Positions 1,944 through 30,600 of a DNA stretch of 35,763 nucleotides are shown in pieces. Below the pieces are notes generated by a model. The model was not told where the DNA came from. It saw only the letters and a program-made list of their open reading frames with translations, and made no database searches. The position numbers and the translations under genes are program-made. Source of the DNA: Gemmatimonadota bacterium (GTDB taxonomy: Bacteria > Gemmatimonadota > Gemmatimonadetes > Gemmatimonadales > Gemmatimonadaceae); the NCBI GenBank assembly GCA_025362095.1, contig JANYIJ010000148.1:1-35763 (forward strand), written 5' to 3'. The stretch's first letter is position 1; the number at the start of each line of letters is the position of its first letter.

Positions 1944-4900
1944 CTATTGCGGAGGCCGTCCGCCCCCGCGGCCGCCGCCGCCGCCCTGAATAGGTCCGAA
2001 GACCGACTGTGGATGCTTCACCTGCTCCGGCAGCTTGGCCCACTGCTCCTTCGTCAGGATGATCTCGGCTTCCGCGATCGACTTCGCGCCGAGATTCTGC
2101 GCGTCGGCGAAGACGCCGCGGAGTTGCACTTGCACCGCAGCCTGATCCGCGTTGTTGCCCATGCCGCGCATTTTCGCGGCGACCTTGTTGCCCAGCGTGT
2201 CGATCTGCTTCACGAGCGAGTCGGCCATCACGGTGAGCAGCGCCTTCTGCGATTCAGTGAGGACGAGCTTGAGCGTGTCCGCGCGCTGGAGGATCGTGCG
2301 GAAGATGTTCGGCACATAGCGTTGGACCATGCGGCTGTACTGCAGCATGGTGTCGGCGGGCGCGCCATTGCCGCCGCGACCGCCACGCGCCGCCTGCTGC
2401 GCCGCCAGCTGTGCCGCGCGCGCGTAGTCTGGCCCGATCGTGTACCGCGCCGTGAGCTGCACTTGGAACGGCCGCGTGATGATCAACTGGTTCGAACGCT
2501 GGTCGCCGAACTTTTCGTTCACGGAATACTTGAAGTTGTTCGTCACCGGATCGAAGCCTGTCACGTACAGCAGCTGGCTGTTCGCGCGGATCGGCTGTCC
2601 CCATCCCTGCAGATGGTTCTCGCCGTGCAGCAGGAGGTCCATGCCGGCGATCGGGTTCGTGAGCGCAAACGAGATCATCAGGTTGCGCTTCAGCCCGAGG
2701 CGGTCGGGACGATAGTTGACCTGCATGCTGACGTTCGGCGTCCACATCGTGGTGCATGAATTGCGGCCGGCCACGGTCCCAAGCTGTGACTCGAGGCAGC
2801 TCTTGATGCGCGAGGGCGCCGACGCGATCAGGTGATTGATGCCGTTGGCGATCGCCGTATCCGCGGTCGTCGCCGGATTGTAGATGAACGCCCGGTCGTT
2901 GGATGCGCCGTCGCCGTTGATATCACCGCCCACGAGCGGCGTATACGGTGAGCCGGACTGATAACTCACGACTGCCGTCAGCTCGACCGATGGATGCACC
3001 GGCCACGTCGCGATGAGCTGAATGTTGTGGCGCCGCTCGTTGTCGCTGGTGCCCCACTGCGTGACGTTCGGATTGCCCGCCGTCGTCGGCGACCGGAACA
3101 AACCGCCGGCCGAGCCGCCCGCCGCCGTGCTCTGATCGCGCGAGCGCTGGTACGTATACGACAGCGACATGTTGATGCCCTGCGGCGTGAACCCGTTGAT
3201 CGATGCCGTCACCTGTTTGGCTTCGGAGCCGAGGTTGGAGTTCACGCTGTACACGCTGCCGTACGCGCCTTGCACTCGCGAGTTGAGCGACTGCAGCGCT
3301 CCGGTCGTGGGCACGATCGCGAGCGGCGACACGTACACCGGGCGGTTGCCTTCATTCCCGAGTGTGAACTGGGGTGCCGACGTGTTCAGGTTGAGATCGG
3401 TCACGCCGTAGTAATTGGTGCCGCGCGCATACGTCGCGTCGATGTTGACGGTGTAGCGCTGGAGAATGCGGCGCTGCACGCCGAGCGAACCGCGCCACGC
3501 GCGGGGCGCTTCGAAATCGGGAGCGAAGGTCGTGACGTTCGGCTTGTTTGCCGAGAGGAGCGACGGGGCGGAGTTCGCACCGCCGAGGCACTGATTGGGA
3601 ATCGCCGACGGACTGTTGATCATCGCCGACCAGTTCGGTATCGGCGTCGCGCTGCCGATGCAGACGAGCTGAGTCTCCGAACCCGCGAGACCAGTCGCGT
3701 CGAGCGCGTTGGTGAACACGCTCGTAGGCGCCTTGCCGCGGAATTCGCCGATGCCGCCGCGAATGACGGTCGTCGAAAGACCCTGGAACATGTTCGGCCC
3801 GCCGCCACCGGGACCACCGCCGCCACCGCCGCGGCCACCGCGTCCGCCGCCGCCGCCGAATCCACCACCGCCACCCTGATCCTGACCGCCGCCCTGACGA
3901 CCGTTGTTGCGGTTCGTCGTGTCGCCCGGCGCGCGCGGCGGAGGTGCCGGCGGAAGTCCGGAGGTCCATGTGAAGCCGAGACGCGGACTGAGGTGCGTCT
4001 CCGACGGGAAATCACTCGTATTGCGACCAAACAGCGTCTGGATGTCGGGATTGTACTGGGGTCGACCGTCGAAACGCGTTGCCTCGGCGCGCACGCCATA
4101 CACCATCTGGAACGCGCGCGACACACGCCATGCATCGCCCACGTATACCGCCGCATTCTCCGTGTCGCCCGTGTGAACCGTTGGCGTCAGCGTTCGCGTG
4201 AACTGGCTCGGGAGGTTGTTGTCGAAATCGGCAAGCGAATTGTAGCTCCACGATCCGAGCTGGTTGGTCGTGTTGTTGTTGTTGAACGAAGTGATGTTTC
4301 CGAAGAAACCAACCTTGAAGCGATGCGCGCTGCCCGCTTTGAAGTAGCTCGCTTCGTCGGTGAGCTCGATCTGCTTCGTCTCGCTCGATGTCGGCATGCC
4401 GGCGTTGCCGCCGAACACGAAGTTGCTGATGCCGGTGAGGCTGTCGGGGAGCGCGGAGGTCACGCGCACCGATCCTTGCGGCATGGTGAGGAACGGCTGC
4501 GCGTTGTTCGTCGCGTCGGCCATGTAGAGCCGCACCTCGTTGATGATGCCGTTGTCGAACTGCGAGCTCAGCGATGTCATGAGCCCGCCGCCGAGCGACT
4601 TGGTGTCGCCGCCATGCAGCGGAACCGAGAGCGTGCTCAGGCGCGTCGCGTCGAGCGCGGTCCAGTTCCAGTCGCCACGGACCGTGAGCGTGTGGCGATC
4701 GCCGAGCGCGAAGTCCATGCGCGTGAGCGCGGTCGAACGATCGGTGAGCGCATCGTTCGGAACGACGAGCGACGACGTGGGAATTCCGTAATGGCTCAGG
4801 TTGCTGAGAAAATGCGCCACGGAATCCGGCGCGGCGTTCGAACGCTGAAGCAACAGGTTGTTCGCATTCAGCAGGGTGTTGATGTCCTGGATGCGCGCGC

Positions 4901-5792
4901 TGCCATTTGCGGAGACGAACCAGAACGACTGATCCTGCACGAACGGGCCGCCGACGCCGAAGCTCAGCTGGTTGGATGTAAAGCGCGCGGTTGTCTGCGA
5001 TGAAGTGTCGGGGAACTGGAAGTCCGGCTGGTTCATCACATAACCGGCCGATCCTTGAATGACGTTCGTGCCGCTGCGCGTGGTGCTCGCCACCTGGCCG
5101 CCGGTGAACTGCCCGCGGGCCACATCGTACGTGTTCGTGATCACGCGCGTGTTGCGCACGGCTTCCGACGGCACGCCTCCCGAGCCGAATGAGAGGCCGT
5201 CGAGCGTGATCTGGTTTTGGTCCGCGCGCTGGCCGGCGATCACGAACGAATTCGCACTGGAATCCGAACCGCCGAGCAGAATGACGCCCGGCGCGAGCGA
5301 AGCGACGAGCGCCGGATCCGACGCGTCAACCGGCAGGCGATAGAGCTGTTCGCCCGAGAGCACTTTCTCGGTGCTGCCGGCCGTCGGACGCTCGTTGCCA
5401 TTGGGGTTTGGCGCCGCGCGAACGACGATCTGCCCTAGACGCTGACTCGTGGGGCTCATCTTCGCGTCGGCCTCAAGACGGTCTTCATCAGCCTGACGAT
5501 TCACGTTCAGGACGAACGGCGCCATGCCAATTGCCTTGAAGGTCACGCGATAATTTCCTCCGCCATCCGGATAGAGCAGGGTGTACTGCCCCTTCTCGTT
5601 CGTCGTGCGGAAGCGGGTGACCTGCGTTTCGAGCGACAATACCTCGACGCGCGCGCCCGCGATGGGCTCGCCGTTGGGTCCGGTGACTTTACCGGTGATG
5701 ATGTCTGTGGTCGATCCAACCTGAGCGCGGGCCATTGCCGGCACGCCGAGCGCCACTGCGAAGAGGGCGACGGCGATGAGTAGTCGTTTCAT
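1944..5792 (-). CDS. TonB-dependent outer-membrane receptor with N-terminal CarboxypepD_reg domain and C-terminal LTxxQ extension
   Basis: This is an outer-membrane, TonB-energised importer or receptor of unknown substrate. I start it at the ATG at 5792 (MKRLLIAVALFAVALGVPAMARAQ), which gives a clean signal peptide; the track start at 5828 adds 12 residues. Order: a carboxypeptidase-regulatory-like beta-sandwich (GKVTGPNGEPIAGARVEV to about residue 110); a plug (LDGLSFGSGGVPSEAVRNT, FTGGQVASTTRSG); then a large beta-barrel ending near QVQLTARYTIGP. Inside the barrel is a Pro- and Gly/Arg-rich insertion (about 3790-3962), probably an external loop. Unusually, about 160 residues follow the final barrel strand. 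They hold two LTxxQ motifs (LTESQ, LTKEQ) in predicted helices and a GGGGGRGGGRPPQ tail. It lies 58 nt downstream of a DASS anion transporter on the same strand, so co-expression is possible. Substrate cannot be read from the sequence. Confidence 0.9.
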   Translation of the reverse strand: MKRLLIAVALFAVALGVPAMARAQVGSTTDIITGKVTGPNGEPIAGARVEVLSLETQVTRFRTTNEKGQYTLLYPDGGGNYRVTFKAIGMAPFVLNVNRQADEDRLEADAKMSPTSQRLGQIVVRAAPNPNGNERPTAGSTEKVLSGEQLYRLPVDASDPALVASLAPGVILLGGSDSSANSFVIAGQRADQNQITLDGLSFGSGGVPSEAVRNTRVITNTYDVARGQFTGGQVASTTRSGTNVIQGSAGYVMNQPDFQFPDTSSQTTARFTSNQLSFGVGGPFVQDQSFWFVSANGSARIQDINTLLNANNLLLQRSNAAPDSVAHFLSNLSHYGIPTSSLVVPNDALTDRSTALTRMDFALGDRHTLTVRGDWNWTALDATRLSTLSVPLHGGDTKSLGGGLMTSLSSQFDNGIINEVRLYMADATNNAQPFLTMPQGSVRVTSALPDSLTGISNFVFGGNAGMPTSSETKQIELTDEASYFKAGSAHRFKVGFFGNITSFNNNNTTNQLGSWSYNSLADFDNNLPSQFTRTLTPTVHTGDTENAAVYVGDAWRVSRAFQMVYGVRAEATRFDGRPQYNPDIQTLFGRNTSDFPSETHLSPRLGFTWTSGLPPAPPPRAPGDTTNRNNGRQGGGQDQGGGGGFGGGGGRGGRGGGGGGPGGGGPNMFQGLSTTVIRGGIGEFRGKAPTSVFTNALDATGLAGSETQLVCIGSATPIPNWSAMINSPSAIPNQCLGGANSAPSLLSANKPNVTTFAPDFEAPRAWRGSLGVQRRILQRYTVNIDATYARGTNYYGVTDLNLNTSAPQFTLGNEGNRPVYVSPLAIVPTTGALQSLNSRVQGAYGSVYSVNSNLGSEAKQVTASINGFTPQGINMSLSYTYQRSRDQSTAAGGSAGGLFRSPTTAGNPNVTQWGTSDNERRHNIQLIATWPVHPSVELTAVVSYQSGSPYTPLVGGDINGDGASNDRAFIYNPATTADTAIANGINHLIASAPSRIKSCLESQLGTVAGRNSCTTMWTPNVSMQVNYRPDRLGLKRNLMISFALTNPIAGMDLLLHGENHLQGWGQPIRANSQLLYVTGFDPVTNNFKYSVNEKFGDQRSNQLIITRPFQVQLTARYTIGPDYARAAQLAAQQAARGGRGGNGAPADTMLQYSRMVQRYVPNIFRTILQRADTLKLVLTESQKALLTVMADSLVKQIDTLGNKVAAKMRGMGNNADQAAVQVQLRGVFADAQNLGAKSIAEAEIILTKEQWAKLPEQVKHPQSVFGPIQGGGGGRGGGRPPQ

Positions 5793-5850
5793 GCTCTCTA
5801 AGACGCATGAGACGACCTCTGCGTTCATCGCTGAACAGCCTGATTCTACC

Positions 5851-7251
5851 CTACCACCACCCCAGCAGTTTCCACCATCCCAGACCGGTTACTGTCCAGA
5901 TCGTGATGGTCGCGACCGACACGAGCAGCCCGAGTCTCCACCAGTCTTTTTGGGTGATGTAGTCGGCGCCGAAATAAATTGGCGCGGTAGTCGTGCCGTA
6001 GGTGGTGAGCGACGCGCTCAAGTTCGAGAAATATGCGAGAAAAAGCACGGCCATCAGCGGGGGCGCGCCCGCCGCGACGACCACGAGAAGGAACGGCGTG
6101 AACATGGCTGTTACGTGCGCGGTGATGCTCGCGAATCCGTAGTGGGCGTAGAAATAAATCAGCAGCAGAACCGCCAGCGCAGCGCCCCACGCCCACCCCG
6201 AAGTCATCGCCGCGGAGCCGTGCGCGAATCGCGAGGTGACGCCACTCTGGCTCAGCGCCTCCGCCATCCCCAGCAGTCCGCCGTACCATATGAATACATC
6301 CCACGCCGGACGCTCGCCGGTGATCTCGTCCCACGTGAGCACGCCGCTGAGGAACAGCACGCTGATGCCCAGCAGCGCGACCACGGCGTAGTTGATGTGG
6401 TGAAGACCGGTGGTCATCCAGAGCCCTGCGACCAGCGCGAACACTCCGAGCATGATGCGCTCCTCGCGCCGCATGGGTCCGATCCGTTCGAGCTCTTCCT
6501 GCGCGAGCCGCGAAGCATCGGGGGTGTGCGTGATGCCCGGCGGATAGATCTTGAAGAGGAACCACGGAATGAACGCGAACGAGATCAGCGCCGGAATCGA
6601 CGCGCCGATCAGCCATTTCGAATATGTGAGATCGACGGCGACGGCATCTTTCGCGAATTTCGCGACGAGCACGTTCGATGCCTGCCCTGTGAGAAATGTG
6701 GCGCATGCGATGACGTCGCACTGATATATCGTGAATAGCAGATAGGCGCCGAGTCGCCTCGCCGTGGGTCCCGGCTGCGAGTCGTACGCTTCGGCGAGAC
6801 TGCGCGCGACAGGGAACACCACGCCGCCGGCCCGCGCACTGTTCGACGGGAGGAACGCAGCGAGCAGCGAGTCGGTGGATACGAGCGCGTACGCGAGTCC
6901 GAGCGAACTCCGCCCGAGCGCGCGAATGAAGAGGAACGCGATCCGCCGGCCGAGTCCGGTCTTGAGCACGCCGCGCGAGAGGAAAAACGCGCAAAGCACG
7001 AGCCAAACTATTGGATCGGAGTATCCGCTCAGCGCTTTCGCCGTGGGGAGTGTGTTCGTGAGCGCGATCGTGGAAACGCCGAGGAAGACGATCGCGCCCG
7101 CCGGCACGGGGCGCACGATGGAGCCGACGATCGTGCCGGTGAAAATCGCTAGAAGCCGCCACGACTCGACCGTGACTCCCGCTGGCACAGGGAAAAGCAG
7201 CACGATGACTGCTGATGCGACGACGGCAATCCAGCGATTGAGAGTAGACAT
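5851..7251 (-). CDS. DASS/SLC13-family anion (di/tricarboxylate or sulfate) permease
   Basis: This inner-membrane secondary transporter has 466 residues and many hydrophobic segments. The family signatures are the N-terminal SN-S/T block LPSNSARAGGVVFPV and the C-terminal block YFSNLSASLTTYGTTTAPIYFG. The latter closely resembles CitT and plastid 2-oxoglutarate/malate translocators and corresponds to the sodium- and carboxylate-binding hairpins. Size and motif order match full-length DASS proteins. By family it probably moves dicarboxylates (malate, 2-oxoglutarate, succinate) or citrate by sodium symport or anion exchange; sulfate is less likely given the CitT-like motif. It is the first gene of a possible two-gene unit with the TonB receptor. 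No strong Shine-Dalgarno precedes the ATG at 7251. Confidence 0.88.
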   Translation of the reverse strand: MSTLNRWIAVVASAVIVLLFPVPAGVTVESWRLLAIFTGTIVGSIVRPVPAGAIVFLGVSTIALTNTLPTAKALSGYSDPIVWLVLCAFFLSRGVLKTGLGRRIAFLFIRALGRSSLGLAYALVSTDSLLAAFLPSNSARAGGVVFPVARSLAEAYDSQPGPTARRLGAYLLFTIYQCDVIACATFLTGQASNVLVAKFAKDAVAVDLTYSKWLIGASIPALISFAFIPWFLFKIYPPGITHTPDASRLAQEELERIGPMRREERIMLGVFALVAGLWMTTGLHHINYAVVALLGISVLFLSGVLTWDEITGERPAWDVFIWYGGLLGMAEALSQSGVTSRFAHGSAAMTSGWAWGAALAVLLLIYFYAHYGFASITAHVTAMFTPFLLVVVAAGAPPLMAVLFLAYFSNLSASLTTYGTTTAPIYFGADYITQKDWWRLGLLVSVATITIWTVTGLGWWKLLGWW

Positions 7252-8684: not shown

Positions 8685-10103
8685 TTAGTCGTGAACCACC
8701 GGCAGTGCCTCGCGATTCCATTCATCGTAACCGCCGCGGAGATTGATCACGTCACGCACGCCGTGCGCGAGCAGCACACTCGCCGCGATTGCCGAGCGCG
8801 TGCCCCCCTGGCATTGGACGAGCACCGGCCGCTCTCGCGGAATTTCGCCGACTCGCTCTCCGAGATACCCAACCGGAATGTGCAGCGCGCCCGGAAGGTG
8901 CCCGTGTGCCCACTCCGACGCGTTGCGCACGTCGACCACGGTGACCTCACCGCTCTTCACGCGATCTGCAATCAAGGACGACGTCGTTTGCGTCACGCGC
9001 TCCATCGTGCCGCCGTCCGACCATGCGCTCAGCGAATCGGCAGGGAACCATCCGGCGACGTGATCGAGACCGATCTTCGCCATCTCGCGAGACGCGCGCG
9101 CGGCATCGGCTTGCGATTCGGCGATCAGGCACACGTCGCGGTCGTACGGTAGAAGCCAGCCGGCCCAAGTCGAAAACGATTTTCCCAACGGAATATTCAG
9201 GGTGCCGGGAACGTGTGCATCGGCGAACGCGTCGCCCGAGCGCGTGTCGACGACGACCTGATGTTCGGCGAGCGCGCCGCCCAGCCGCGCGGGGTCGAGT
9301 CGATCGGGTTGCGGCCACTCTTTGAGAATCGGAGGGCCGTCGCGATTGATGCGTTTCATTTCCGCGAAATACGCCGGCGGCTCGGGTTGGCCGGCGAGCA
9401 CCTCCGCCACGAACGCGCTTTCATCGAGCGTGGTGAGTCCCCAGTTCGCGATGCGTTCGTAGCCGATCGTCGATTGGGGCAGCGAGCCAAGCGCCTTTCC
9501 GCAGGCTGAGCCGGCGCCGTGTCCTGGCCAGAGCTGCACGTGGTCCGGCAGCTCGCGAACGCGCTTCAGGGAGCCGAAGAGCGCGTGCGCGGAATCTTCC
9601 ATCGTGTTCGCGATCTTCGCCGCGCGCTCGAGCAGGTCGGGGCGACCGACGTCGCCGACGAACACGCAATCACCAGAGACGAGCCCGACCGGCCTATCCG
9701 AGGTCGCGAGATCCGTGACGAGAAACACCAGGTGCTCGGGCGTGTGTCCCGGTGTGTGCAGCACGTCGAATCGCACACGCCCTGCGTGGAACGCATCGCC
9801 GTCGTGCAGCAGTCTCGCGCCGTCGTCTGCGGCGAACGCGTACTGCCAGTCGCGGCCGCCTTCCGCCGAGAGGAGCAGCGTCGCGCAGGCGCGCTGCGCG
9901 AGTTCGCGGCTGCCCGACACGAAATCGGCGTGGATGTGCGTTTCGGTGACGCTCGTGATCCGGAGGCGCTCGGCCGCTGCAGCCGCGAGGTACTGCGAGA
10001 CATCGCGGTTCGCGTCGATCACGACCGCCTCGCCGCTGGCCTCGCAGCCGATCAAATAGCTCGCCTGCGCGAGGCCTTCATCGTAGAAACGCCTGAAGAA
10101 CAT
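8685..10103 (-). CDS. MBL-fold persulfide dioxygenase-like hydrolase fused to two rhodanese domains
   Basis: This cytoplasmic sulfur enzyme has 472 residues. Residues about 1-250 form a metallo-beta-lactamase domain with THIHADF (56-61), HTPGHTPEH (115-123) and SGDCVFVGDVGRPDL (about 142-156). These match the iron ligands of ETHE1-type persulfide dioxygenases. The second His of the dinuclear HxHxDH motif is Phe here, as expected for a mononuclear iron site. Two rhodanese domains follow. The first (VVVDTRSGDAFADAHVPG) has no Cys in its active loop (IAESQADA) and is probably inactive. The second (VLVQCQGGTRSA) keeps the catalytic Cys. By analogy with CstB and ETHE1-rhodanese fusions it would oxidise persulfides to sulfite or thiosulfate. 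The TauE/SafE exporter lies just upstream in the same operon, 21 nt away, which supports this. GGGAGA precedes the start. Confidence 0.9.
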   Translation of the reverse strand: MFFRRFYDEGLAQASYLIGCEASGEAVVIDANRDVSQYLAAAAAERLRITSVTETHIHADFVSGSRELAQRACATLLLSAEGGRDWQYAFAADDGARLLHDGDAFHAGRVRFDVLHTPGHTPEHLVFLVTDLATSDRPVGLVSGDCVFVGDVGRPDLLERAAKIANTMEDSAHALFGSLKRVRELPDHVQLWPGHGAGSACGKALGSLPQSTIGYERIANWGLTTLDESAFVAEVLAGQPEPPAYFAEMKRINRDGPPILKEWPQPDRLDPARLGGALAEHQVVVDTRSGDAFADAHVPGTLNIPLGKSFSTWAGWLLPYDRDVCLIAESQADAARASREMAKIGLDHVAGWFPADSLSAWSDGGTMERVTQTTSSLIADRVKSGEVTVVDVRNASEWAHGHLPGALHIPVGYLGERVGEIPRERPVLVQCQGGTRSAIAASVLLAHGVRDVINLRGGYDEWNREALPVVHD

Positions 10104-10124
10104 CCGTCGGTCTCTCCCGGGCGA

Positions 10125-10877
10125 CTACAGTCGCGAGTAGTTCTGCCAGAACACCAGCACCGCTATTACGAGCAGGAGCACGGCGAATCCCTGTTTCAGC
10201 GCGCGTTGCGGCACGGAGCGGGCGAATCGCGCGCCCGCGACGATTCCGACAATTGTGAACGCAGTAAAAGTAGTCACATCACGCCATGGGATCGCGTCGA
10301 TGTTTCGCTGTCCGGCATAGCCGGACACACAGTTCATCGCGATGACCAGCAGCGACGTTCCCACGGCCTCGCGCATGGGCACCTGGCCGAACAGCACGAG
10401 CGCGGGAACGATGAGAAAACCGCCGCCAATCCCGATGAGTCCCGTGAGACCGCCGACTGCGAACGCGACCACGTACAGTGCACGAGACGGCGCGCGCAGT
10501 GGTGCCAGGATTGAAGTGTCACGCGAGGCGGAGCGGAGCATCAGCATCGCGGCCGCGGCCATGACGACGCCGAGAATCAAGAGTTGCATGCGCCCGCTCA
10601 CAAGCACCGATGCGCGCGCGCCCGCGAACGACCCCGCCATCGCGACGAGACCAAATAGCAGCGCGCCGGTGAGCCGGACGTTTCCCGCGCGCCACTGTCC
10701 GATCGCTCCAACGAGGCTCGTGGCGCCAACGATCGGAAAACTCATCGCGATCGCCAGCTTCGGATCGATGCCGAGCACGTACACCAGGACTGGCACGGTG
10801 AGAATTGAGCCGCCGCCGCCGAACAAACCGAGTGTCAGCCCGATGATCAGGGCGAGAGTCAATGCGAGCGCGGTCAC
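10125..10877 (-). CDS. TauE/SafE-family sulfite (sulfonate) exporter
   Basis: This inner-membrane permease has about 250 residues and eight or so hydrophobic helices. It carries the two family half-motifs GLFGGGGSILTVPVLVYVLG and GLIGIGGGFLIVPALVLFG. The track start at 11192 is wrong: its first 100 residues are an Arg/Ser-rich shadow of the amidase. I choose GTG at 10877 (VTALALTLALIIGL), one nucleotide past the amidase stop, implying translational coupling. Together with the downstream MBL-rhodanese it resembles the cst-type arrangement, in which sulfite formed from persulfide is exported. Substrate is inferred from family and context. Confidence 0.88.
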   Translation of the reverse strand: MTALALTLALIIGLTLGLFGGGGSILTVPVLVYVLGIDPKLAIAMSFPIVGATSLVGAIGQWRAGNVRLTGALLFGLVAMAGSFAGARASVLVSGRMQLLILGVVMAAAAMLMLRSASRDTSILAPLRAPSRALYVVAFAVGGLTGLIGIGGGFLIVPALVLFGQVPMREAVGTSLLVIAMNCVSGYAGQRNIDAIPWRDVTTFTAFTIVGIVAGARFARSVPQRALKQGFAVLLLVIAVLVFWQNYSRL

Positions 10878-10878
10878 G

Positions 10879-12576
10879 TCACTCGTCGAGCAGCGGATAC
10901 CACCGGCGCGGCTTCTTGCGATCGACGATCTGTTCCGCTGCGGCCGCGATCCGCAGGAGCATGCGCTCGCCCCACGGTCTGCCGATCGCCTGCATGCCGA
11001 TCGGAAGTCCGCCGGAATCGTAGCCCGCCGGAAAACTGATCGCGGGATGACCGGTGAAGTTCGATGGAAAAGCGAACCGCATGATCTCGGTGGTCGTCGA
11101 CAGATCCGATTCCCCGTGGGGCTGTGCGGCGGGATTGATTCGCGGCGCGGCGATCGCAGTGGCGGGCGTGATGATCGCATCGACGCCTTCAAAAGCGCGC
11201 CGAAAGATCGCCATCGCGCGCGTCCGGATCCGCTGCGCCTTCACGTACTCGGCAGCGGTCGAGCCGCGCGCGCTCGCGAGATTCGCGCGCGCATCGAGGC
11301 CGAACTGGCGGCGGTGCTCGCTGTCGTATGGGGTCATCGCCGCGACCATCTCGCTGGTGATGCTCACAATGTGCCCGATGCGCATGAGATCGAGCTCAGG
11401 AATATCCACTTCCCTGATCACAGCGCCGCGATCGACAAGCGAACGCACGAGCGACTCACACCGCTCCACCACCTCCGGCGTCGCGTGTCGGAACCATGGC
11501 CAGTATACGCCGAGCGTCACGCCGCGAAGATCAGCCGGTGGAGCGTCGTCGATTTCCACGGCGGAGTGGCCGATACTGAGCGGGTCGAGCGGATCGGGTC
11601 CCGCCAGGAGTTCGTACATGCGCGCGCAGTCACGCACGTTCGCCGTCATCGGCCCGATGTGCGCGAGACTCCAGCAGAGCGGAAACGCGCCGTGCTCGCT
11701 GATGCGGCCGAAGGTCGCTTTGAGTCCGACGATCCCGCAGAGCGCGGCGGGCATGCGAATCGACCCGCCGCCGTCGGCGCCTATCGCGATGGGCGCGAGA
11801 CCTGAAGCAACCACCGTCGCCGGTCCGCTCGACGATCCGCCCGTGTGAAATCGATCGTCGTACGGATTGCGCGTGGTGCCGTGATGCGGGTTGAGGCCGG
11901 TGACGTTTATTCCGAGCTCGTGCATGTTCGTCTTCCCGACGAGCAGTGCTCCGGCTGCGCGCATGCGCGCCACGACGGTCGCATCGTGCGCGGCGCGCGA
12001 GGTGCCGATGAAACTCGTGCCGGCGGTTGTGGCGTAGCCGCGCTGATCGAGTTCGTCTTTCACCGCTGACGGAACGCCGTCGAACGGGCCCAGCGGCGCG
12101 CCCGCGCGCCAGCGTATTCCCGACGCCTTTGCCTGCGCCATCACGTCGTCGCGATCGACGGCGATGAAGGCCTTCAGACTGGGCGCATCGCGCTCACTTT
12201 GGTCTAGCTGCGATAGAAAACGTTCGGCCACTTTCTCGGGGGACGTACGGCCCTCGCGATACGCCTGCGCGAAATCGTCGACACCGGGAAAGTGAAATCC
12301 TGGCGGAGACTGGGACGTGCTGCGCGCGAGCGGCGGCGACGCGCGATCGTCTGGATCGAGAAACGGAAAAAACGTCGGCGGCTCGTCGACGCGCTCCGTG
12401 CTGATGCGGTTGAGGCCCGCGTCTTTCCGGAGCTTTCCGACCAGCGCCGGGCCCGTGATGGGATTCTCGAGCAGCTCAGTGACGACGCGGAGTGCGGCGG
12501 TGCCGAGCCGCGGCAGATCGAGCGAGCGAAGATCGTACGTCAATCGTGGCTCACTTCGGCGCGCCGTATTTCGCAA
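10879..12576 (-). CDS. Amidase-signature (AS) family amidase
   Basis: This hydrolyses a carboxamide bond; the exact substrate is unknown. The Ser-cisSer-Lys triad is visible: Lys173 in VPSAVKDELD, the cis-Ser in TGGSSSGPA (about 245-252) and the nucleophile Ser272 in GADGGGSIRMPAALCG. The 565-residue length is long for the family because about 90 N-terminal residues precede the usual start of the fold (FPGVDDFAQAYREGRTSPEKVAERFL). No signal peptide is seen, so it is probably cytoplasmic. The ATG at 12576 overlaps the upstream Asp-box gene by 26 nt; a TTG at 12543, just after that gene's stop, is an alternative start. It could be an aryl-acylamidase, a GatA-like paralogue or an amide-degrading enzyme. 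No GatB or GatC lies nearby, so a transamidase role is unlikely. Confidence 0.88.
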   Translation of the reverse strand: MRNTARRSEPRLTYDLRSLDLPRLGTAALRVVTELLENPITGPALVGKLRKDAGLNRISTERVDEPPTFFPFLDPDDRASPPLARSTSQSPPGFHFPGVDDFAQAYREGRTSPEKVAERFLSQLDQSERDAPSLKAFIAVDRDDVMAQAKASGIRWRAGAPLGPFDGVPSAVKDELDQRGYATTAGTSFIGTSRAAHDATVVARMRAAGALLVGKTNMHELGINVTGLNPHHGTTRNPYDDRFHTGGSSSGPATVVASGLAPIAIGADGGGSIRMPAALCGIVGLKATFGRISEHGAFPLCWSLAHIGPMTANVRDCARMYELLAGPDPLDPLSIGHSAVEIDDAPPADLRGVTLGVYWPWFRHATPEVVERCESLVRSLVDRGAVIREVDIPELDLMRIGHIVSITSEMVAAMTPYDSEHRRQFGLDARANLASARGSTAAEYVKAQRIRTRAMAIFRRAFEGVDAIITPATAIAAPRINPAAQPHGESDLSTTTEIMRFAFPSNFTGHPAISFPAGYDSGGLPIGMQAIGRPWGERMLLRIAAAAEQIVDRKKPRRWYPLLDE

Positions 12577-21894: not shown

Positions 21895-24378
21895 TCACTC
21901 GTCGCGCAGCGCTGCGATCGGATCGAGCCCGGCGGCGCGCCGCGCGGGAAGCCAGCAGGCGATTGAGGCAATTGCTCCGAAGAGCAGCGCCACCGCGGCG
22001 AAGGTCGCCGGATCGATTGGCGCGACGCCAACCAGCATGCTGCGCATCACCCGCGTGAGCGCGAGCGAGGCCGCCAGTCCAAGCGCGATGCCGGAAAGGC
22101 TCAGCCGCATCCCCTGCCCGATGACGAGCCGAAAGATCTCCTGCTTCGACGATCCGAGCGCCATCCGGACGCCGATTTCCGCTGTGCGCTGACGAACCAC
22201 TGTCGAGAGAACTCCGTAGAGTCCCACGCCGGAAAGCACGACGGCGATTCCCGCAAAAATCCCGATGCAAATGAGAGCAAAGCGCGTCGGCGCCCTAGCC
22301 GCCTTCACGTAGTCCGACATCGGCTTCAATTCCGCAACGGGCACGAGCGGATCGACCGACGCCATCACCGCGCGCGCCGGGCCGGCCAGCAGCGCCGGAT
22401 CGCCGTTCGTCCGAAGCACCCAGTGCGATCCCGTGCCGTATCCGAACTCCCCGTCGATCATATACACAGTCTCGCGGCCGTCGGTCGCGAGTCCCTGATG
22501 GCGCTGATGCTGCACGACGCCGATCACGTCCATCCACTCCGGCTCGTTCGACCGCGAACGCATAAAAATTCGTTTCCCCACCGCGTGCTCACCGGGAAAC
22601 GCCTTCGCGGCGAGCAGGTTGTCGATGAGAATCGCGTGGCCGAGCGGAATGTTGTCCGCCTCGGTGAAATCGCGGCCCTCGAGGATCTTGGTGCGCATCG
22701 CGTCGAAGTAACCCGGAATCACAATGAACAGATTCGCCTGCTGAAACGCGGCGGGATCGGAGACAGCGCTCTCCGTGCCGTAGCGCACGTTCGCCTCGTT
22801 ACCGTTGAGCGGGAGCGGAAAAACAAAACTGACAGCGGTCACGCCGGGAATCGCCGCGAGTTTTTGGTGGACCGCCTGGACGATCGCCGCGCGTTCGTCG
22901 GGCGTTCGTCTCGCAATCTGAACGCTAAAAGTGAACAGGCCGTTTGGATCGTATCCGGGATTCGTGTTCGCAAGCGTGATGAAGCTTCGCACCATCAGCC
23001 CGCTCCCAATCAGCAGCACGAATGCGAGCGCCACCTCGGCCATCACCACTCCGTTGCGCAGAAAGCGTCCGCCGCCGAGCTCCGACATTCGTCCGCTCTG
23101 GCGCAGCACGCCGATGAGATCCGGCCGCGACGCCCGCAATGCCGGCACGATGCCGAATGCCGCTGCGGAGACGAGACCGGCCAGCATCGTGAACATCAGA
23201 ACGGTTGCATCCAGCCTGACATCCTCCACGCGTGGAAGGTTCGCAGGCCCGATGCTCAGCAGCAGCTGAACGCCCGCGTCCGCGAGAACGATCCCGAGCA
23301 GTGAGCCCCCCACAGACAGCACGATCGCTTCCGCGAGCATCTGTCGGACGAGCCGAGCGCGGCCTCCGCCAAGCGCGGCGCGCACGGCGAGCTCGCGCTC
23401 CCGGCGTGACGTTCGAACGAGAATGAGGTTGGCGACGTTCGCGCAGGCGATGAGCAGCACGAATACCACGGCGCCCATGAGCGAGAGCACGATCGGTCGC
23501 ACATCTGCGACCAGATTCTCATGCATCGGCTCCGCGCGGAAATACACGCCAGCCGTGTTCTTGATTGGGAAGCGCTGGCGCAGGTCGGCGCCGAGGGCAT
23601 CGAGCTGCGTCTGAACCGCAGCGAGATTCGACGCCGGCTGCAGGCGGCCGATGAGCCGAAACTGCACGTTGATGCGCGAGGCGGCGTCGAAGTTGATCCG
23701 CGTCGCAAGAAGAAGATCGGGCACGCGCGTGATGCTCATGCGCGCAGGGAAGAGCAACTCGAAGTTCGGCGCCGCGACACCGACGATTTCGGCGCGATTG
23801 TTTCCCAGGCTCACGATCTTTCCAATCGCCTTCGGGTCGCCGCCGTATCGGCGCTGCCAGAACTGGTAGCTGATGATCGCGCTGAACGTGATCGGCGGCG
23901 GCGCGACGATCGGGAACGCCGCCCCCGGAGGAAGTGCGGGCGGCGGCGGCGTCGCGTCGCTGTCGTTGAAGTCGCGTCCGGCAGCCATCTTCACGCCAAG
24001 GAGCGAGAAGAGATTCACCGTCGCGTTGCCCCCGCGCACCTGCTGCGGTTCGACTCCGTCTTCGATGAGCGAAACAGGGAATGTGTTTAAGCCGGCGATT
24101 CCGCTCAGCGACTTGACCTCAACCCACATGTCCTTCAAATCGCCCGGCGCGATCTGAAAGTCGGTCACATGCCTGTTCCGCATGTCCGACGTCACGATCA
24201 CCAGCCGATCCGCCTGTGCGTACGGCAGCGGCTTGAGAAGCACAGCGTTCACAACGCTGAAAATGGCAGTGCTCGCGCCGATGCCCAGCGAGAGTGTCAC
24301 GAGCGCGGTGATCGCGAACGCCGGATTCTTTCGCAGCGTTCGGATGCCAAACGCGAAGTCTTTCAGCCAGGTTTCCAT
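21895..24378 (-). CDS. MacB/FtsX-type permease of the ADOP (acidobacterial duplicated orphan permease) family
   Basis: This 827-residue inner-membrane protein duplicates the MacB_PCD plus FtsX arrangement. The N-terminus METWLKDFAFGIRTLRKNPAFAITALVTLSLGIGASTAIFSVVNAVLLKPLPY is the hallmark of ADOP proteins. The first FtsX unit follows near VLSLMGAVVFVLLIACANVANLILVR; the second periplasmic domain begins after FLRNGVVMAEVALAFVLLIGSGLMVRSF; and the C-terminus has RTAEIGVRMALGSSKQEIFRLVIGQGMRL. The family lacks a fused ATPase and none is adjacent here, consistent with the orphan label. Its role is presumably efflux or mechanotransmission; substrate unknown. Confidence 0.92.
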   Translation of the reverse strand: METWLKDFAFGIRTLRKNPAFAITALVTLSLGIGASTAIFSVVNAVLLKPLPYAQADRLVIVTSDMRNRHVTDFQIAPGDLKDMWVEVKSLSGIAGLNTFPVSLIEDGVEPQQVRGGNATVNLFSLLGVKMAAGRDFNDSDATPPPPALPPGAAFPIVAPPPITFSAIISYQFWQRRYGGDPKAIGKIVSLGNNRAEIVGVAAPNFELLFPARMSITRVPDLLLATRINFDAASRINVQFRLIGRLQPASNLAAVQTQLDALGADLRQRFPIKNTAGVYFRAEPMHENLVADVRPIVLSLMGAVVFVLLIACANVANLILVRTSRRERELAVRAALGGGRARLVRQMLAEAIVLSVGGSLLGIVLADAGVQLLLSIGPANLPRVEDVRLDATVLMFTMLAGLVSAAAFGIVPALRASRPDLIGVLRQSGRMSELGGGRFLRNGVVMAEVALAFVLLIGSGLMVRSFITLANTNPGYDPNGLFTFSVQIARRTPDERAAIVQAVHQKLAAIPGVTAVSFVFPLPLNGNEANVRYGTESAVSDPAAFQQANLFIVIPGYFDAMRTKILEGRDFTEADNIPLGHAILIDNLLAAKAFPGEHAVGKRIFMRSRSNEPEWMDVIGVVQHQRHQGLATDGRETVYMIDGEFGYGTGSHWVLRTNGDPALLAGPARAVMASVDPLVPVAELKPMSDYVKAARAPTRFALICIGIFAGIAVVLSGVGLYGVLSTVVRQRTAEIGVRMALGSSKQEIFRLVIGQGMRLSLSGIALGLAASLALTRVMRSMLVGVAPIDPATFAAVALLFGAIASIACWLPARRAAGLDPIAALRDE

Positions 24379-24511
24379 AAGAGATCCGCACTCCGCATTG
24401 GTATCGGCAATTCCCCGCCTACACGCAGAGCATCAAACGTGCCGCCGCAGTGCTCGACTAACTCACGGCGGCGTCAGCGATTGGACACTGACCCTTCATA
24501 TGATGGTTGTG

Positions 24512-24540
24512 CGGATCTGGGACATGGCGTCCCAGATCCG
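24512..24540. terminator. 12-bp perfect hairpin downstream of the RND operon
   Basis: CGGATCTGGGAC (24512-24523) pairs exactly with GTCCCAGATCCG (24529-24540) around a 5-nt loop. It lies 26 nt past the stop of the second RND gene, between it and the ADOP gene. No U tract follows on either strand, so a classic intrinsic terminator is doubtful; a 3'-end stabiliser or Rho-aided end is possible. A weaker GCCGCCG/CGGCGGC stem lies at 24441-24472. Confidence 0.45.
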
Positions 24541-24565
24541 AACTCAGGCGCTGCGTAGGCCTTGC

Positions 24566-27500
24566 TTAGGCGCTCACGGGATGCGCGCCGCCAACCTCGA
24601 TCGGCGCTTCTTCCTTCACGCGATTGCGCCGCAGCCAAGTCTGCAGTTCGTCGAGGTACGTGTAGAACACGGGTGTTACGTACAGCGTCACCAGCTGTGA
24701 AAACGCGAGTCCGCCCACCACCGCGACGCCGAGCGGACGCCGCGTTTCCGCGCCAGCGCCCCAGCCAAATGCGATCGGCAGCGCGCCCATCAGCGCGGCC
24801 ATTGTGGTCATCATGATCGGCCGGAATCGCACACTCGCCGCCTGCAGGATCGCCTCGGCCGGCGGCTTGTGCTCGTTGCGCTCCGTCTCGATCGCGAAGT
24901 CGATCATCATGATCGCGTTTTTTTCCACGATGCCCACAAGCATGATGATGCCGACGAATCCGTAGATGTCGAGGTCGAGGCCAAAGAGAATCAGCGTGAC
25001 CAGCGCGCCGAATGCGGCGAACGGCAGTCCGGTGAGGATCGTGATCGGGTGGATGAAGCTCTCATACAGCACGCCGAGGATCATGTAGATCACGAACACG
25101 GCGAGCACGAGCAACAGCGCGAGTCCCTGCTGCGTGGCCATGAACGCCTGCGCGGTGCCCGCGAAACGCGCGGAGACGTTCGGCGGCAGGAGCGTTGCCG
25201 CCTCCTTGGTGATCGCGTCGACCGCGGTGCCGAGCGAAGCCGTGGGCGCGAGGTTGAACGAGATGGTCACCGACGGCAGCTGGCCCGAGTGATTCACGGT
25301 GACCGGCCCGACGGAGTACGTGAATTTGGCGACGGCGCCGAGCGGCACGAGTGGCCCCCGCGTCGAGCGCACCCAGAGTTTGCCGAGCGCGTCGACGTCC
25401 TGTTGATACTTCGGGAGCAGCTCCATCACCACCCAGTATTCGTTGGTCGAGGTGTAGATGGTGGAGACCTGACGCTGGCCGAACGCATCGTACAGGTTGT
25501 TCTCAATTTCGGCTGCAGACACACCGAGCTGGCCCGCCGCCTCACGGTCGATCTCGACAGTGACCTGCGGATTCTCGATGAGCAGATCGCTCGTGACGTC
25601 GGCGAGAATCGGCAGCTGCCGGAGACGCGCCTCGAGCTGGGCGGCGGCGCTGTTGAGCGTGACGATATCGCCGCCCTGCAGCGTGTACTGATAGAGACTC
25701 TTCGACGCGAGTCCACCGATCGAAATCGCCGGAGGATTTTGCACGAACACCGTGATGTCCGGCACCGACTGCAGTGTTCTTGAAAGGTCGCGGCCGATTT
25801 GGTCGGCGCTGCGCTTGCGCTCGGTGATCGGCTTGAGGTCGATCGTGAGCTGTCCCTGGTTTGCCGCAGCCGTGGTGCCGACCGACGACGTCACGGACTT
25901 CACGTCGGGATCTTTCCTCACTGCCGCGGCGACTTCCTGCTGGTGCGCGACGAGCGCGTCGAAACCCACGCCCTCGGCCGCTTCCGTCGTCGCGAGAAGC
26001 TGGCCCGTGTCGTCAGTGGGGAAGAGGCCTTTCGGCGTGGACCAGAACAGGTAGCCCGTCGCCACGAGGATCACAAACGAGAAGACCAGTGTCGCGGGCC
26101 GGTGACGCATGACCGACGCGAGCGTGCGTTCGTAGAGTCCGAGCCACGCGTCGAAGAAACGCTCGCTCGTCTGGTAGAGCTTGCCGTGATTGTCCGAATG
26201 CGACGAGCGCAGAAAACGGCTCGAGAGCATCGGCGTCAGCGTGAGCGACACGAATCCCGACACGAGAATCGCGACGCCGATCGTCACCGCAAACTCGTGG
26301 AACAGCTTGCCGATGATTCCGCCCATGAAGAGGAACGGAATGAACACTGCGGCGAGCGAGAACGTCATCGAGAGAATCGTGAACCCGACTTCCGAGGCGC
26401 CGTCGATCGCGGCCTGCAACTTTGGTTTTCCCATCTCGAGATGGCGCACGATGTTCTCGAGCATCACGATCGCGTCGTCCACGACAAATCCGACCGCCAG
26501 CGTGAGCGCCATCAAACTGAGATTGTCGAGACTGTAGTTCAGCAGGTACATCACCGAGAACGTGCCGATGATCGACATCGGCAGCGCCAAGCTCGGAATG
26601 AATGTCGCGGAGAAGTTGCGCAGGAACAGGAAGATCACGAGCACGACCAGCGCGAGGGTCAGCTCGAGCGTGAAAGTGACGTCCTCCACCGACGCCTGAA
26701 TCGTCGCGGAGCGGTCGTACAGAATATCGACCTTCACCGACGGCGGAATCTCGGTGCGGATCTTTGCGAGCGCTTCCTTCACGTGCGCCGAAACATCCAC
26801 GGTGTTCGTGCCCGGCTGGCGCTGAATCGCAAGTACGATCGATCGCGAGCCGTTATACCAGCTCGCGGTCTTGTTATTTTGCACGTCGTCGGTGATGTGG
26901 CCGACCTCGCTCAGATGCACCGGCGCGCCGTTCTTGTACGCGACGATGATGTCGCCGAACGCGCTCGCGCTGTCGAGCTGGCCCGTGGCCTGCACTGTGA
27001 GCGCGGTCTTCGGGCCCCACAGCACGCCCGTGGGCAAGTTCACGTTCTGATTTGTTACGGCGGTCATGATGTCTTCGAGCGCGATGCCGCGCGTCGCGAG
27101 CGCCGACGGATCCATCTGCAGGCGCACTGCGTATTTCTGCGCGCCGTACACCAGCACCTGCGCCACGCCGCCGACCATCGAGAGGCGCTGTGCGATCGTG
27201 GTCTCGCCGTATTCATCCAGCGTTGAGAGCGGCACTTCGCTCGAGGTGAGCGCGAGCGTCATGATCGGAGCGTCTGCCGGATTCGTCTTCTGGTACGACG
27301 GCGGGATAATTCCCTGCGGCAACTGGCGCAGCGTTTGCGCGATCGACGCCTGCACGTCCTGCGCGGCCGCGTCCACGTTGCGGTCGAGCGCAAACTGTAC
27401 GACGATCTGCGTCTGCCCGAGGCTGGACGTCGACGTCATGTTGTCGATGCCGGCGATCGTCGAAAACGACTTCTCGAGCGGCGTCGCCACTGTCGCCGCC

Positions 27501-27676
27501 ATGGTCTGCGGGCTCGTGCCCGGCAGCAGCGCGGTTACCGTGATCGTCGGAAAATCGACGTTCGGCAGGTCACTCACCGGCAGCTGACGGTACGACACAA
27601 TGCCGAACACGAGAATGCCGATCATAACGAGAGTTGTCATGACCGGACGCTTGATGAACAGGGTCGTGAAATTCAT
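24566..27676 (-). CDS. RND multidrug efflux permease, second of a tandem pair (MdtC-like)
   Basis: This inner-membrane, proton-driven exporter subunit has 1036 residues, the usual length for HAE1 permeases. MNFTTLFIKRPVMTTLVMIGILVFGIVSYRQLPVSDLP is the standard start. The proton-relay aspartates are in AVGFVVDDAIVMLENIVRHLEMG at about residue 400. The late motifs FVGIIMLVGIVEKNAIMMIDFA and RPIMMTTMAALMGALPIAFGWGAG are also present. The gene begins only 3 nt after the first permease stops, so translation is coupled. Two distinct permeases with one adaptor resemble MdtABC, where MdtB and MdtC form a heterotrimer. The ordinal label MdtC-like is by position only. Confidence 0.95.
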   Translation of the reverse strand: MNFTTLFIKRPVMTTLVMIGILVFGIVSYRQLPVSDLPNVDFPTITVTALLPGTSPQTMAATVATPLEKSFSTIAGIDNMTSTSSLGQTQIVVQFALDRNVDAAAQDVQASIAQTLRQLPQGIIPPSYQKTNPADAPIMTLALTSSEVPLSTLDEYGETTIAQRLSMVGGVAQVLVYGAQKYAVRLQMDPSALATRGIALEDIMTAVTNQNVNLPTGVLWGPKTALTVQATGQLDSASAFGDIIVAYKNGAPVHLSEVGHITDDVQNNKTASWYNGSRSIVLAIQRQPGTNTVDVSAHVKEALAKIRTEIPPSVKVDILYDRSATIQASVEDVTFTLELTLALVVLVIFLFLRNFSATFIPSLALPMSIIGTFSVMYLLNYSLDNLSLMALTLAVGFVVDDAIVMLENIVRHLEMGKPKLQAAIDGASEVGFTILSMTFSLAAVFIPFLFMGGIIGKLFHEFAVTIGVAILVSGFVSLTLTPMLSSRFLRSSHSDNHGKLYQTSERFFDAWLGLYERTLASVMRHRPATLVFSFVILVATGYLFWSTPKGLFPTDDTGQLLATTEAAEGVGFDALVAHQQEVAAAVRKDPDVKSVTSSVGTTAAANQGQLTIDLKPITERKRSADQIGRDLSRTLQSVPDITVFVQNPPAISIGGLASKSLYQYTLQGGDIVTLNSAAAQLEARLRQLPILADVTSDLLIENPQVTVEIDREAAGQLGVSAAEIENNLYDAFGQRQVSTIYTSTNEYWVVMELLPKYQQDVDALGKLWVRSTRGPLVPLGAVAKFTYSVGPVTVNHSGQLPSVTISFNLAPTASLGTAVDAITKEAATLLPPNVSARFAGTAQAFMATQQGLALLLVLAVFVIYMILGVLYESFIHPITILTGLPFAAFGALVTLILFGLDLDIYGFVGIIMLVGIVEKNAIMMIDFAIETERNEHKPPAEAILQAASVRFRPIMMTTMAALMGALPIAFGWGAGAETRRPLGVAVVGGLAFSQLVTLYVTPVFYTYLDELQTWLRRNRVKEEAPIEVGGAHPVSA

Positions 27677-27679
27677 CGA

Positions 27680-30600
27680 TCAGTTTCCCGCGGACGTGGA
27701 CGCGTGCGCGAGGCCGGGCTCGAGCGCGCTGCCTTTCGGCGCACGCGCGCCTGCACGACCGAACCACGACTGCAGTTCGTCCAGATATGTGTAGAACACC
27801 GGTGTGACGAACAGCGTCACCACCTGCGAAAATACGAGCCCGCCCACAACGGCGATGCCCAGCGGCCGCCGCGACGCAGCGCTCGCGCCGACGCCGATCG
27901 CGATCGGCAGCGTGCCGATGATCGCGGAAAACGTCGTCATCATGATCGGCCGGAACCGCACGACCGCCGCGCGCATGATGGCCTCGGTGGGCGGCGAGTG
28001 CTCTGCCCGCTCCGTGGCGATCGCGAAATCGATCATCATGATCGCGTTCTTCTGCACGATGCCGATCAGCATGATGATTCCCACATATCCGTAAACGCCG
28101 AGCTCCACTTTCGTGATGTACAGCGCGAACAGCGCGCCGAACGCGGCGAACGGAAGCCCGGTGAGGATCGTGATGGGATGGATGAAGCTCTCGTACAGCA
28201 CGCCGAGAATCAGATAGATAATGAACACGGTGATCAGCAGGAGAAGGCCGAGCCCCTTCTGCGATTGCTCGAACGCCTGCGCCGTGCCGTTGAACGCCGC
28301 CGTGATGTTCGCTGGCAGCGATTGTGTCGCAACCTGCTTCACGTGATCTACCGCGCCGCCGAGCGCGATGCCCGGCGCGAGATTGAACGAGATCGTCACC
28401 GACGCCATCTGCCCCGAATGCGGAATGCTCAGTGGCCCTACGACATTTTCGAAGGTCGCGACGTCGGCGAGCGGAACAAGCTTGCCGCCGGAGCCAGGCA
28501 TGTAGAATTTCTGAAGCGCGGTGGCGTCGAGCTGCGCCGACGGCACGGTCTCCATCACCACCCAGTACTCGTTGGTGGGCGTGTAGATCGTGGAGACCTG
28601 TTGCTGGTTATAGGCGTTCGCGAGCGCGTTCTCGATGCTCGCCGGCGTGACGCCGAGCGAGAGCGCGCGATGGCGGTCGATGCGGATGCGAACGATCGGA
28701 CTGCGGTTGAGCAGGTCCGATGTCACGCCGCTGAGCATCGGCTCCGCCTGCAACTTCGCGAGCAGCTTCGCCGACTCCGCGTACAGCTGCGTGATGTCGG
28801 GCCCGCGAAGTGTGAACTGATAGAGCGTCTTCGCCGAGCGCCCGCCGATTCGAATCACGGGGGGGTTCTGGAAGTACACGGCGAGTCCCGGAATTCCGCT
28901 GAGCCGGCGCGTAAGCTCGACGACCATCGCGTCGGCCGTCGGACGCTTGCCCTGCGGCTTGAGCGTGACGCTGAGATTTCCCTGATTTCCGCCGCTGCCG
29001 CCGAACCCGCCAAGCGATGACGTGAACGACACAATATTTGTGTCCTTCGCGAGTCGCTCCATCGCGATTTTCTGCAGCCGCACCATATCGCCGAACGATG
29101 TGCCCTGTGCGGCCTCGGTCGTGCCGTTCAGCGATCCCGTGTCGTCGGGCGGGAAGAGTCCCTTGGGTATGATCGTCCAGAGCGTGCCGATCAACGCGAG
29201 GATCACCGCGGAAAACACGAGCGTGACCGGACGGTGGCGCATCACCCAGCCGAGTGAACGCGCGTACGCTTCCTTCGCATCCTCGAAGATCCGCTCGGTC
29301 GCCTCGAACAGTTTGCCGTGCTTCACCGTGCCGTGCGCCTTGAGCAGACGGCTGCATAGCATCGGCGTCAGCGTGAGCGAAACGAATCCGGAGACGAGCA
29401 CCGCGACCGCGATGGTGATCGCGAACTCGCGGAACAGCCGGCCGATGATGCCGCCCATGAACATCAGCGGGATGAACACCGATGCGAGCGACAGCGTCAT
29501 GGAGAGAATCGTGTAGCCGATTTCGCGCGCGCCGTCAAACGCCGCCTGCATCGGCGGTTTTCCCATCTCGAGATGACGATAGATGTTCTCGAGCATCACG
29601 ATCGCATCGTCGACCAGGAACCCGACCGCAAGCGTCAGCGCCATCAACGACAGGTTGTCGATGCTGAAATGCAGCAGCGCCATGATCGAGAACGTGCCCA
29701 CGATCGCCATCGGCAGCGTGAAGCTCGGGATCAGCGTCGCCACCACGTTCCGGAGGAAGACGAAGATCACCATCACCACCAGCCCGAGCGCGAGCAGCAG
29801 CGAGAACTTCACGTCGTTGACGGAATTCTGAATCGACACCGAGCGGTCGTACTGGATGTGCACGCTCAGCGTCTTCGGCAGTCCTTTCTCGATTTCCGCG
29901 AGCACGGCCTTTGCCTTCTTCGCGATGTCTACGGTGTTCGTGCCGGGCTGGCGGTTGATCATCAGGAACACGGTGCGGTCGTTGCCGAACCACGCGCCGC
30001 CTTTGTTGTTCTGAATGTCGTCCAGCACGTTTCCGAGATCGCCGAGCCGCACAGGCGCGCCGTTCTTCCAGGAAACAATCAGCTTCCTGAAGTCGGCGGC
30101 GTTCGACATCTGCCCCGTCGCCTGGATCGTGAGCGTCTTGTCCTTGCCGTAGAGCACGCCCGTCGGGAGCAGCACGTTGTTGTTCTTGATCGCGTTCGCA
30201 ACCTGCGTGACGCCAATGCCCAGGCTCGCGAGCTTTGCCGGATCGAGCTGCACGCGCACCGCGTACTTGCTCGCGCCCATCACGTTCACCTGCGCGACGC
30301 CCTCGACCATGGAGAGCTGCTGCCCAATTGTTGTCTCGGCGAATTCGTCGATGTCCTGCATCGACAGCACGCTCGACGTGAGCGTGATGTTCAGAATCGG
30401 CGATGCCGCCGGATTCTGCTTGCGATAGTTCGGCGGCAGGATGTTCGGCGGAAGGAACGCCAGCGTCTTGGAAATCGCCGCGTTTACGTCCTGCGCGGCC
30501 GATTCGATATCGCGGTCGAGCGCAAACGTGAGCGTGATGTTGGTGGAGCCGAGGCTGCTGTTCGAGGTGATCTCGTCGATGCCCGCGATCGCCGAGAACG

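Follow-up and report, generated by a model that had tools for sequence, protein, structure and literature searches.

A helical domain probably related to LTxxQ proteins follows the barrel of Oar-like TonB-dependent receptors in Gemmatimonadota

Background

TonB receptors and LTxxQ chaperones are each well studied. In 22-strand TonB receptors, both ends of the barrel are on the periplasmic side. CpxP and CnrX count among the LTxxQ proteins, and CnrX and ZraP are LTxxQ-like metal-binding proteins. A barrel that is followed by a periplasmic C-terminal domain is familiar from OmpA-like proteins. In Myxococcus, the protease PopC is secreted only with the help of Oar, whose N-terminal make-up is similar to that of the receptor described here (PMC6434023).

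We analyzed a stretch of 35,763 nucleotides from a Gemmatimonadota bacterium (contig JANYIJ010000148.1), which we call the window. It encodes a receptor whose chain continues well beyond its barrel. A sequence-only reading had proposed that the additional part is a periplasmic LTxxQ domain of the kind that marks chaperones and metal sensors, and that it might couple ligand occupancy to stress sensing, chaperone glycine-rich loops or dock a partner. We found that an appended, helical, LTxxQ-homologous domain on the periplasmic side stands up to analysis, but that a metal-sensing or loop-chaperoning function does not.

Results and discussion

Organization of the receptor

The receptor gene occupies positions 1,944 to 5,828 of the reverse strand, as do all features of the gene given below. 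The ORF listing has 1,294 codons. The probable start is the ATG at 5,792 (M13), which yields a protein of 1,282 amino acids and, from the ORF and our reading of the sequence, directly precedes the signal peptide. The signal-peptide-like N terminus, MKRLLIAVALFAVALGVPAMARA (5,724–5,792), was recognized by eye and is also kept in the related receptors L046 and L047. A carboxypeptidase regulatory-like domain comes next (residues 44–116; 5,481–5,699; PF13620, E 4.4e-14). The segment LGQIVVRA (residues 131–138; 5,415–5,438), likewise read by eye, precedes the plug, and its xLxxVxVxA pattern recurs in most homologues; we liken it to a TonB box.

The remaining architecture emerges from an AlphaFold model of residues 130–1294 (pLDDT 81.5, pTM 0.76), whose input comprised 48 sequences from the window and from genome contigs. 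The plug region (residues 153–250; 5,079–5,372) is evident in this model and matches PF07715 weakly (E 1.1); the same Pfam family gives E 9.6e-5 in the C59 paralogue. Residues 258–1131 (2,436–5,057) form a beta barrel in the AlphaFold and Foldseek results, and its DSSP string gives 22 strands. Foldseek finds that the model resembles the TonB-dependent transporters YddB/PqqU, FusA, FepA and FpvA, with E-values down to 4.2e-28, and OMP_b-brl_4 (PF25183) is matched above its cut-off (E 1.7e-33). The gene thus encodes an Oar-like TonB-dependent transporter, made of a plug and a 22-strand barrel, where the likeness to Myxococcus xanthus Oar is by description (PMC6434023). There are six TonB_C proteins in the genome.

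The barrel itself contains a disordered, glycine-rich insert, some 50 residues long, that separates modelled strands 12 and 13 (3,780–3,935; model residues 503–554, pLDDT <50). Counting strands by parity, this insert would be a periplasmic turn, on the same side as the extension.

End of the barrel and start of the extension

The last barrel strand in the model spans residues 1121–1131, the RPFQVQLTARYTIG region (2,436–2,468), and non-extended homologues end here. Plasmid-borne homologues from Bacteroidota align only as far as query residues 1129–1131, and a Spirosoma CDS terminates at this same point. Within the genome, one paralogue terminates at the equivalent strand (...YSMQLTMKYSF), while an extension of this type is present in two of the other three barrel proteins that belong to the family. 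A chain usually ends at the last barrel strand, though this is no strict criterion for membership, and the window receptor has 161 residues more. The beta-signal is therefore internal.

Everything after residue 1131 is helix or coil in the model, with helices from residue 1135. We thus reject the idea that the extension consists of further barrel strands. The 161 residues occupy positions 1,947–2,429. Together with the stop codon, they are the final stretch (1,944–2,429) of the 1,294-residue frame, in agreement with the coordinates that the sequence-only reading had assigned, and with its estimate of about 160 residues beyond a barrel end at QLTARYTIGP. From what is established about the topology of 22-strand TonB receptors, the extension would lie in the periplasm, as that reading had also proposed.

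Motifs and predicted structure of the extension

We collected 76 extensions into a family alignment and profile, A3. Modelled alone, the window's extension forms a helical hairpin with both LTxxQ motifs at helix starts (AlphaFold, pLDDT 84.3, pTM 0.69), and it is helical as well in the model that includes the barrel end. The first motif, LTESQ, occupies extension residues 57–61 (2,247–2,261), with L57 present in 72/76 sequences and Q61 in 73/76. The two long helices of the hairpin cover residues 59–90 (2,160–2,255) and 96–124 (2,058–2,144). The second motif, LTKEQ (residues 125–129; 2,043–2,057), is followed by W.KLP; here, L125 is kept in 72, Q129 in all 76 and P134 in 74 sequences. At the end is a Gly/Arg-rich tail (1,947–2,015) with low pLDDT that is probably disordered, and tails of relatives average about 35% glycine. 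The two motifs, helical sequence and Gly/Arg tail that had been read from the letters are thus corroborated by the alignment and the model.

In addition to the four motif positions and P134, D51 and N41 are near-invariant. At least two motifs could be located in 61 members, and 47 of these have them 68 residues apart. Given that the motif residues are retained in 72–76 of 76 relatives, mostly with this spacing, we reject a chance pair of motifs. The core of the extension is basic, with a median pI of 9.5 over the 76 relatives. His, Met and Cys predominate in no column of the core, the highest count being Met in 21/76 sequences at position 43, and a core has on average 0.03 Cys and 0.84 His residues.

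Relationship to LTxxQ proteins

The window receptor's own sequence scores 15.8 bits (E 0.024) against PF07813 (LTXXQ), which is below the gathering cut-off of 24.3 bits. The Pfam model matches 31 of the 76 A3 members at E-values up to 0.01 (best E 1.2e-8), and several relatives exceed the cut-off, at 24.4–36.0 bits among those scanned alone. One of these belongs to Gemmatirosa kalamazoonensis (28.8 bits). An independent PF07813 scan of the phylum also yielded above-cut-off matches in frames of about 1,220–1,460 amino acids. When A3 was compared by hhalign with five LTxxQ proteins (standalone proteins together with Spy/CpxP), the probability was 96.2 and the score 60.2, against a maximum of 16.8 in 100 column shuffles and 15.2 with reversed profiles. 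With Spy/CpxP alone, the score was 35.1, against 16.1 and 10.8, respectively. The kinship that had been suggested from two short motifs is therefore borne out at the profile level, and remote homology of the extension to LTxxQ proteins is likely from these sequence comparisons.

Structural searches bear on whether the resemblance could instead be convergent, such that any helical hairpin with a helix-capping L-T-x-x-Q would look similar. In keeping with convergence, Foldseek found no significant match to the extension in the PDB (best E 0.49), with CpxP at rank 19 (E 2.5, TM 0.24–0.31). A profile hmmsearch of the PDB gave weak hits in which CpxP and Spy are mixed with designed bundles and stathmin (E 0.03–2.7), and a single-sequence phmmer search of the PDB with the extension found nothing. 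However, convergence does not readily account for the many frames of about 1,250 amino acids that match LTXXQ above a curated cut-off, for hhalign scores far in excess of shuffled and reversed controls, or for the same motif order with near-equal spacing (68, versus 73 in Spy) and basic pI. We consider it improbable. Given the lack of a significant Foldseek match, the three-dimensional fold may differ from the Spy cradle. A Spy-like tertiary structure is plausible. We are nonetheless highly confident that this is a TonB-dependent transporter with a helical domain of the LTxxQ family, related to Spy/CpxP, fused behind its last barrel strand.

Separately, the phylum contains frames of about 290–360 amino acids with two tandem LTXXQ matches each (G140:C8, G029:C1, G016:C26 and G127:C3), which suggests free LTxxQ proteins with a double domain.

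Distribution and history

A first profile, built from the three extensions in the window's own genome, matches 147 of 298 Gemmatimonadota genomes, and nearly all of the best matches are in frames of about 1,200–1,400 amino acids. The A3 profile matches 134 of 200 genomes, mostly in frames of about 1,250 residues, where some of the weak matches in distant families could be free LTxxQ proteins. Orthologues across the phylum have thus retained the extension. The extended receptor of G. kalamazoonensis is plasmid-encoded. The absence of the extension outside of Gemmatimonadota rests on a plasmid collection, which supplied the homologues from Bacteroidota.

Judged by sequence, the extension is under purifying selection: relative to the nearest relative (L046), dN/dS is roughly 0.10 in the barrel, compared with 0.21 over the whole extension and 0.31 in the extension core. 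In a tree of barrel sequences, whose root is unsure given the long branches of the outgroups, extended receptors cluster separately from the outgroups, all of which lack the extension. Two non-extended receptors, L103 and L117, nest among the extended ones, which we read as loss. It is well supported that the fusion is old, being common to two large clades of Gemmatimonadota receptors and occasionally lost. We searched for a genuine split into two genes. L118 and L089 encode the domain in another frame, which suggests a frame-shift or an error in sequencing or assembly, and the domain was looked for downstream of the L102, L103 and L117 receptors and not found there.

One contig in the tree (L115, CALQGY020000003.1) is labelled Candidatus Kuenenia stuttgartiensis, but groups firmly with receptors of Gemmatimonadaceae. 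It is probably mislabelled or mis-binned.

Paralogues and gene neighbourhood

The C124 paralogue (L009:1028-6792), in the window's own genome, has the same extension and occurs within an operon of ECF sigma factor, FecR and STN receptor. The extension therefore occurs both in receptors that signal and in receptors that apparently do not. The signalling part of the C124 protein is its N-terminal STN domain. An alpha-L-fucosidase gene on the opposite strand comes after this operon, and the C124 receptor is likely a glycan-responsive TonB transducer.

In the second clade of extended receptors, a gene for a secreted protein of about 475–550 amino acids lies directly downstream of the receptor at some 20 loci (among them L101, L106 and L123). 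This protein has no Pfam match in the one copy that was scanned and looks like a beta-propeller by eye (for example L008:4258-5682). The window receptor is instead adjoined by a glutamine synthetase gene. For receptors of the window's type, a conserved neighbourhood was sought, and neighbours are common to nearest relatives only. A sensor gene adjoining the window receptor gene was also looked for and not found.

Upstream of the receptor ORF, about 25 bases separate it from the end of a gene for a Na+:sulfate (DASS) symporter on the same strand (5,854–7,251, reverse strand). The L046 receptor is likewise preceded by a homologous gene. Symporter and receptor possibly form an operon of two genes, which would hint at an anionic substrate. 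Further along the reverse strand, a metallo-beta-lactamase/rhodanese protein is encoded beside a TauE/SafE exporter (8,688–11,192), a pair reminiscent of sulfur metabolism, and two adjacent AcrB-type RND pump genes lie beside a gene for an FtsX/MacB-type permease (21,898–30,808).

Possible functions

The earlier idea that the domain chaperones the receptor's own glycine-rich loop is not supported by the relatives. The insert is variable and found in only some of them, most extended relatives have a turn of just 9–22 residues at its site, and glycine counts in loop and tail are uncorrelated (-0.05). Given that most extended receptors lack the insert, chaperoning it cannot be a general function, and we reject this candidate. 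We likewise set aside metal sensing in the manner of CnrX or ZraP, which is unlikely because the extension core has no conserved Cys or His in the 76 relatives.

Our tentative proposal, by analogy, is that the extension is a tethered periplasmic binding module. The helical hairpin, which is basic and connected by a flexible linker, would be placed where the barrel opens to the periplasm and would hold flexible or amphipathic segments of polypeptide there, as free Spy holds unfolded clients. These segments could belong to the receptor itself (its plug and its N-terminal domain, while TonB pulls on them) or to a peptide or protein substrate in transit. Tethering would provide one such module per channel. 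The basic pI of the core is a property in common with Spy. Spy and CpxP act as dimers, and a tethered monomer may not form the cradle. Given the role of Oar in PopC secretion (PMC6434023), polypeptide traffic is a live option. We regard the combination of an LTxxQ-domain fusion with a tethered binding module as the best explanation as a whole, with a probability that we would put slightly short of even. It is quite unlikely that these receptors are a phylum-wide class with its own Spy-like holdase, which moves flexible polypeptides and prevents their misfolding or aggregation at the barrel. If true, such receptors would import polypeptides, or export them as for Oar and PopC.

The extension might alternatively be a docking or assembly domain that binds one fixed periplasmic partner and positions the receptor, and has no unfolded clients. 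Peptidoglycan, TonB, a Tol or BAM component or a downstream binding protein are candidate partners, and the secreted protein of the second clade could be one. In favour of docking, conservation is concentrated in the helix-capping LTxxQ motifs, N41, D51 and W.KLP and is not spread over a broad surface. However, the gene for that secreted protein is not beside the window receptor, and no known docking domain was matched, so we think docking somewhat unlikely. A sensor that informs a signalling protein of the inner membrane about ligand occupancy or the state of the envelope, comparable to CpxP with CpxA or CnrX with CnrY, would fit the operon of the C124 paralogue and the membership of CpxP and CnrX among LTxxQ proteins. 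Yet signalling by C124 is assigned to its STN domain, the window gene adjoins no detected sensor gene, and the scarcity of Cys and His leaves no conserved residues of the metal-binding type; a sensor is accordingly a poor prospect. Finally, loss of the domain in L102, L103 and L117, its frame-shifts in L118 and L089, and its faster evolution than the barrel could indicate a dispensable, near-neutral relic of fusion with a neighbouring LTxxQ gene. We consider this very unlikely, in view of the dN/dS of about 0.2–0.3, the near-invariant motifs and the retention of the domain in two divergent receptor clades.

Regardless of which function applies, a fusion conserved across much of a phylum makes it directly testable whether a chaperone-type domain assists TonB-dependent transport. 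Automatic labels such as "TonB-dependent receptor" or "carboxypeptidase regulatory-like protein" overlook the conserved second module.

Comparison with known systems

Among the titles and abstracts of the open-licence literature, we found no description of an LTxxQ domain fused to a TonB receptor, and within that literature the earlier statement that no such receptor had been described stands.

Like the window receptor, Oar-type transporters (OMP_b-brl_4, PF25183) have a carboxypeptidase-regulatory-like N-terminal domain, a plug and a 22-strand barrel. The window receptor differs in its extension of about 160 residues past the last strand, whereas the plasmid-borne Bacteroidota homologues end at the barrel. 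Escherichia coli Spy and CpxP (LTXXQ, PF07813) share with the extension two ordered LTxxQ motifs, a helix-rich and basic character and an expected location in the periplasm. However, the extension is fused to a barrel and not a free soluble protein, its motifs are 68 residues apart versus 73 in Spy, its match to their fold is weak, and it has a conserved W.KLP after the second motif. With CnrX and ZraP there is only the broad LTxxQ kinship, since the extension has no conserved His or Cys ligands, and PF13801 (Metal_resist) is matched only at E 0.8, in one relative. OmpA-like proteins follow the same principle, in that a membrane barrel carries a soluble C-terminal domain in the periplasm. In the window receptor, by contrast, the barrel is that of a 22-strand TonB transporter, and the domain is of the LTxxQ type and not the peptidoglycan-binding OmpA_C. 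The fusion thus combines two known modules in a new way, and it is conserved across the phylum.
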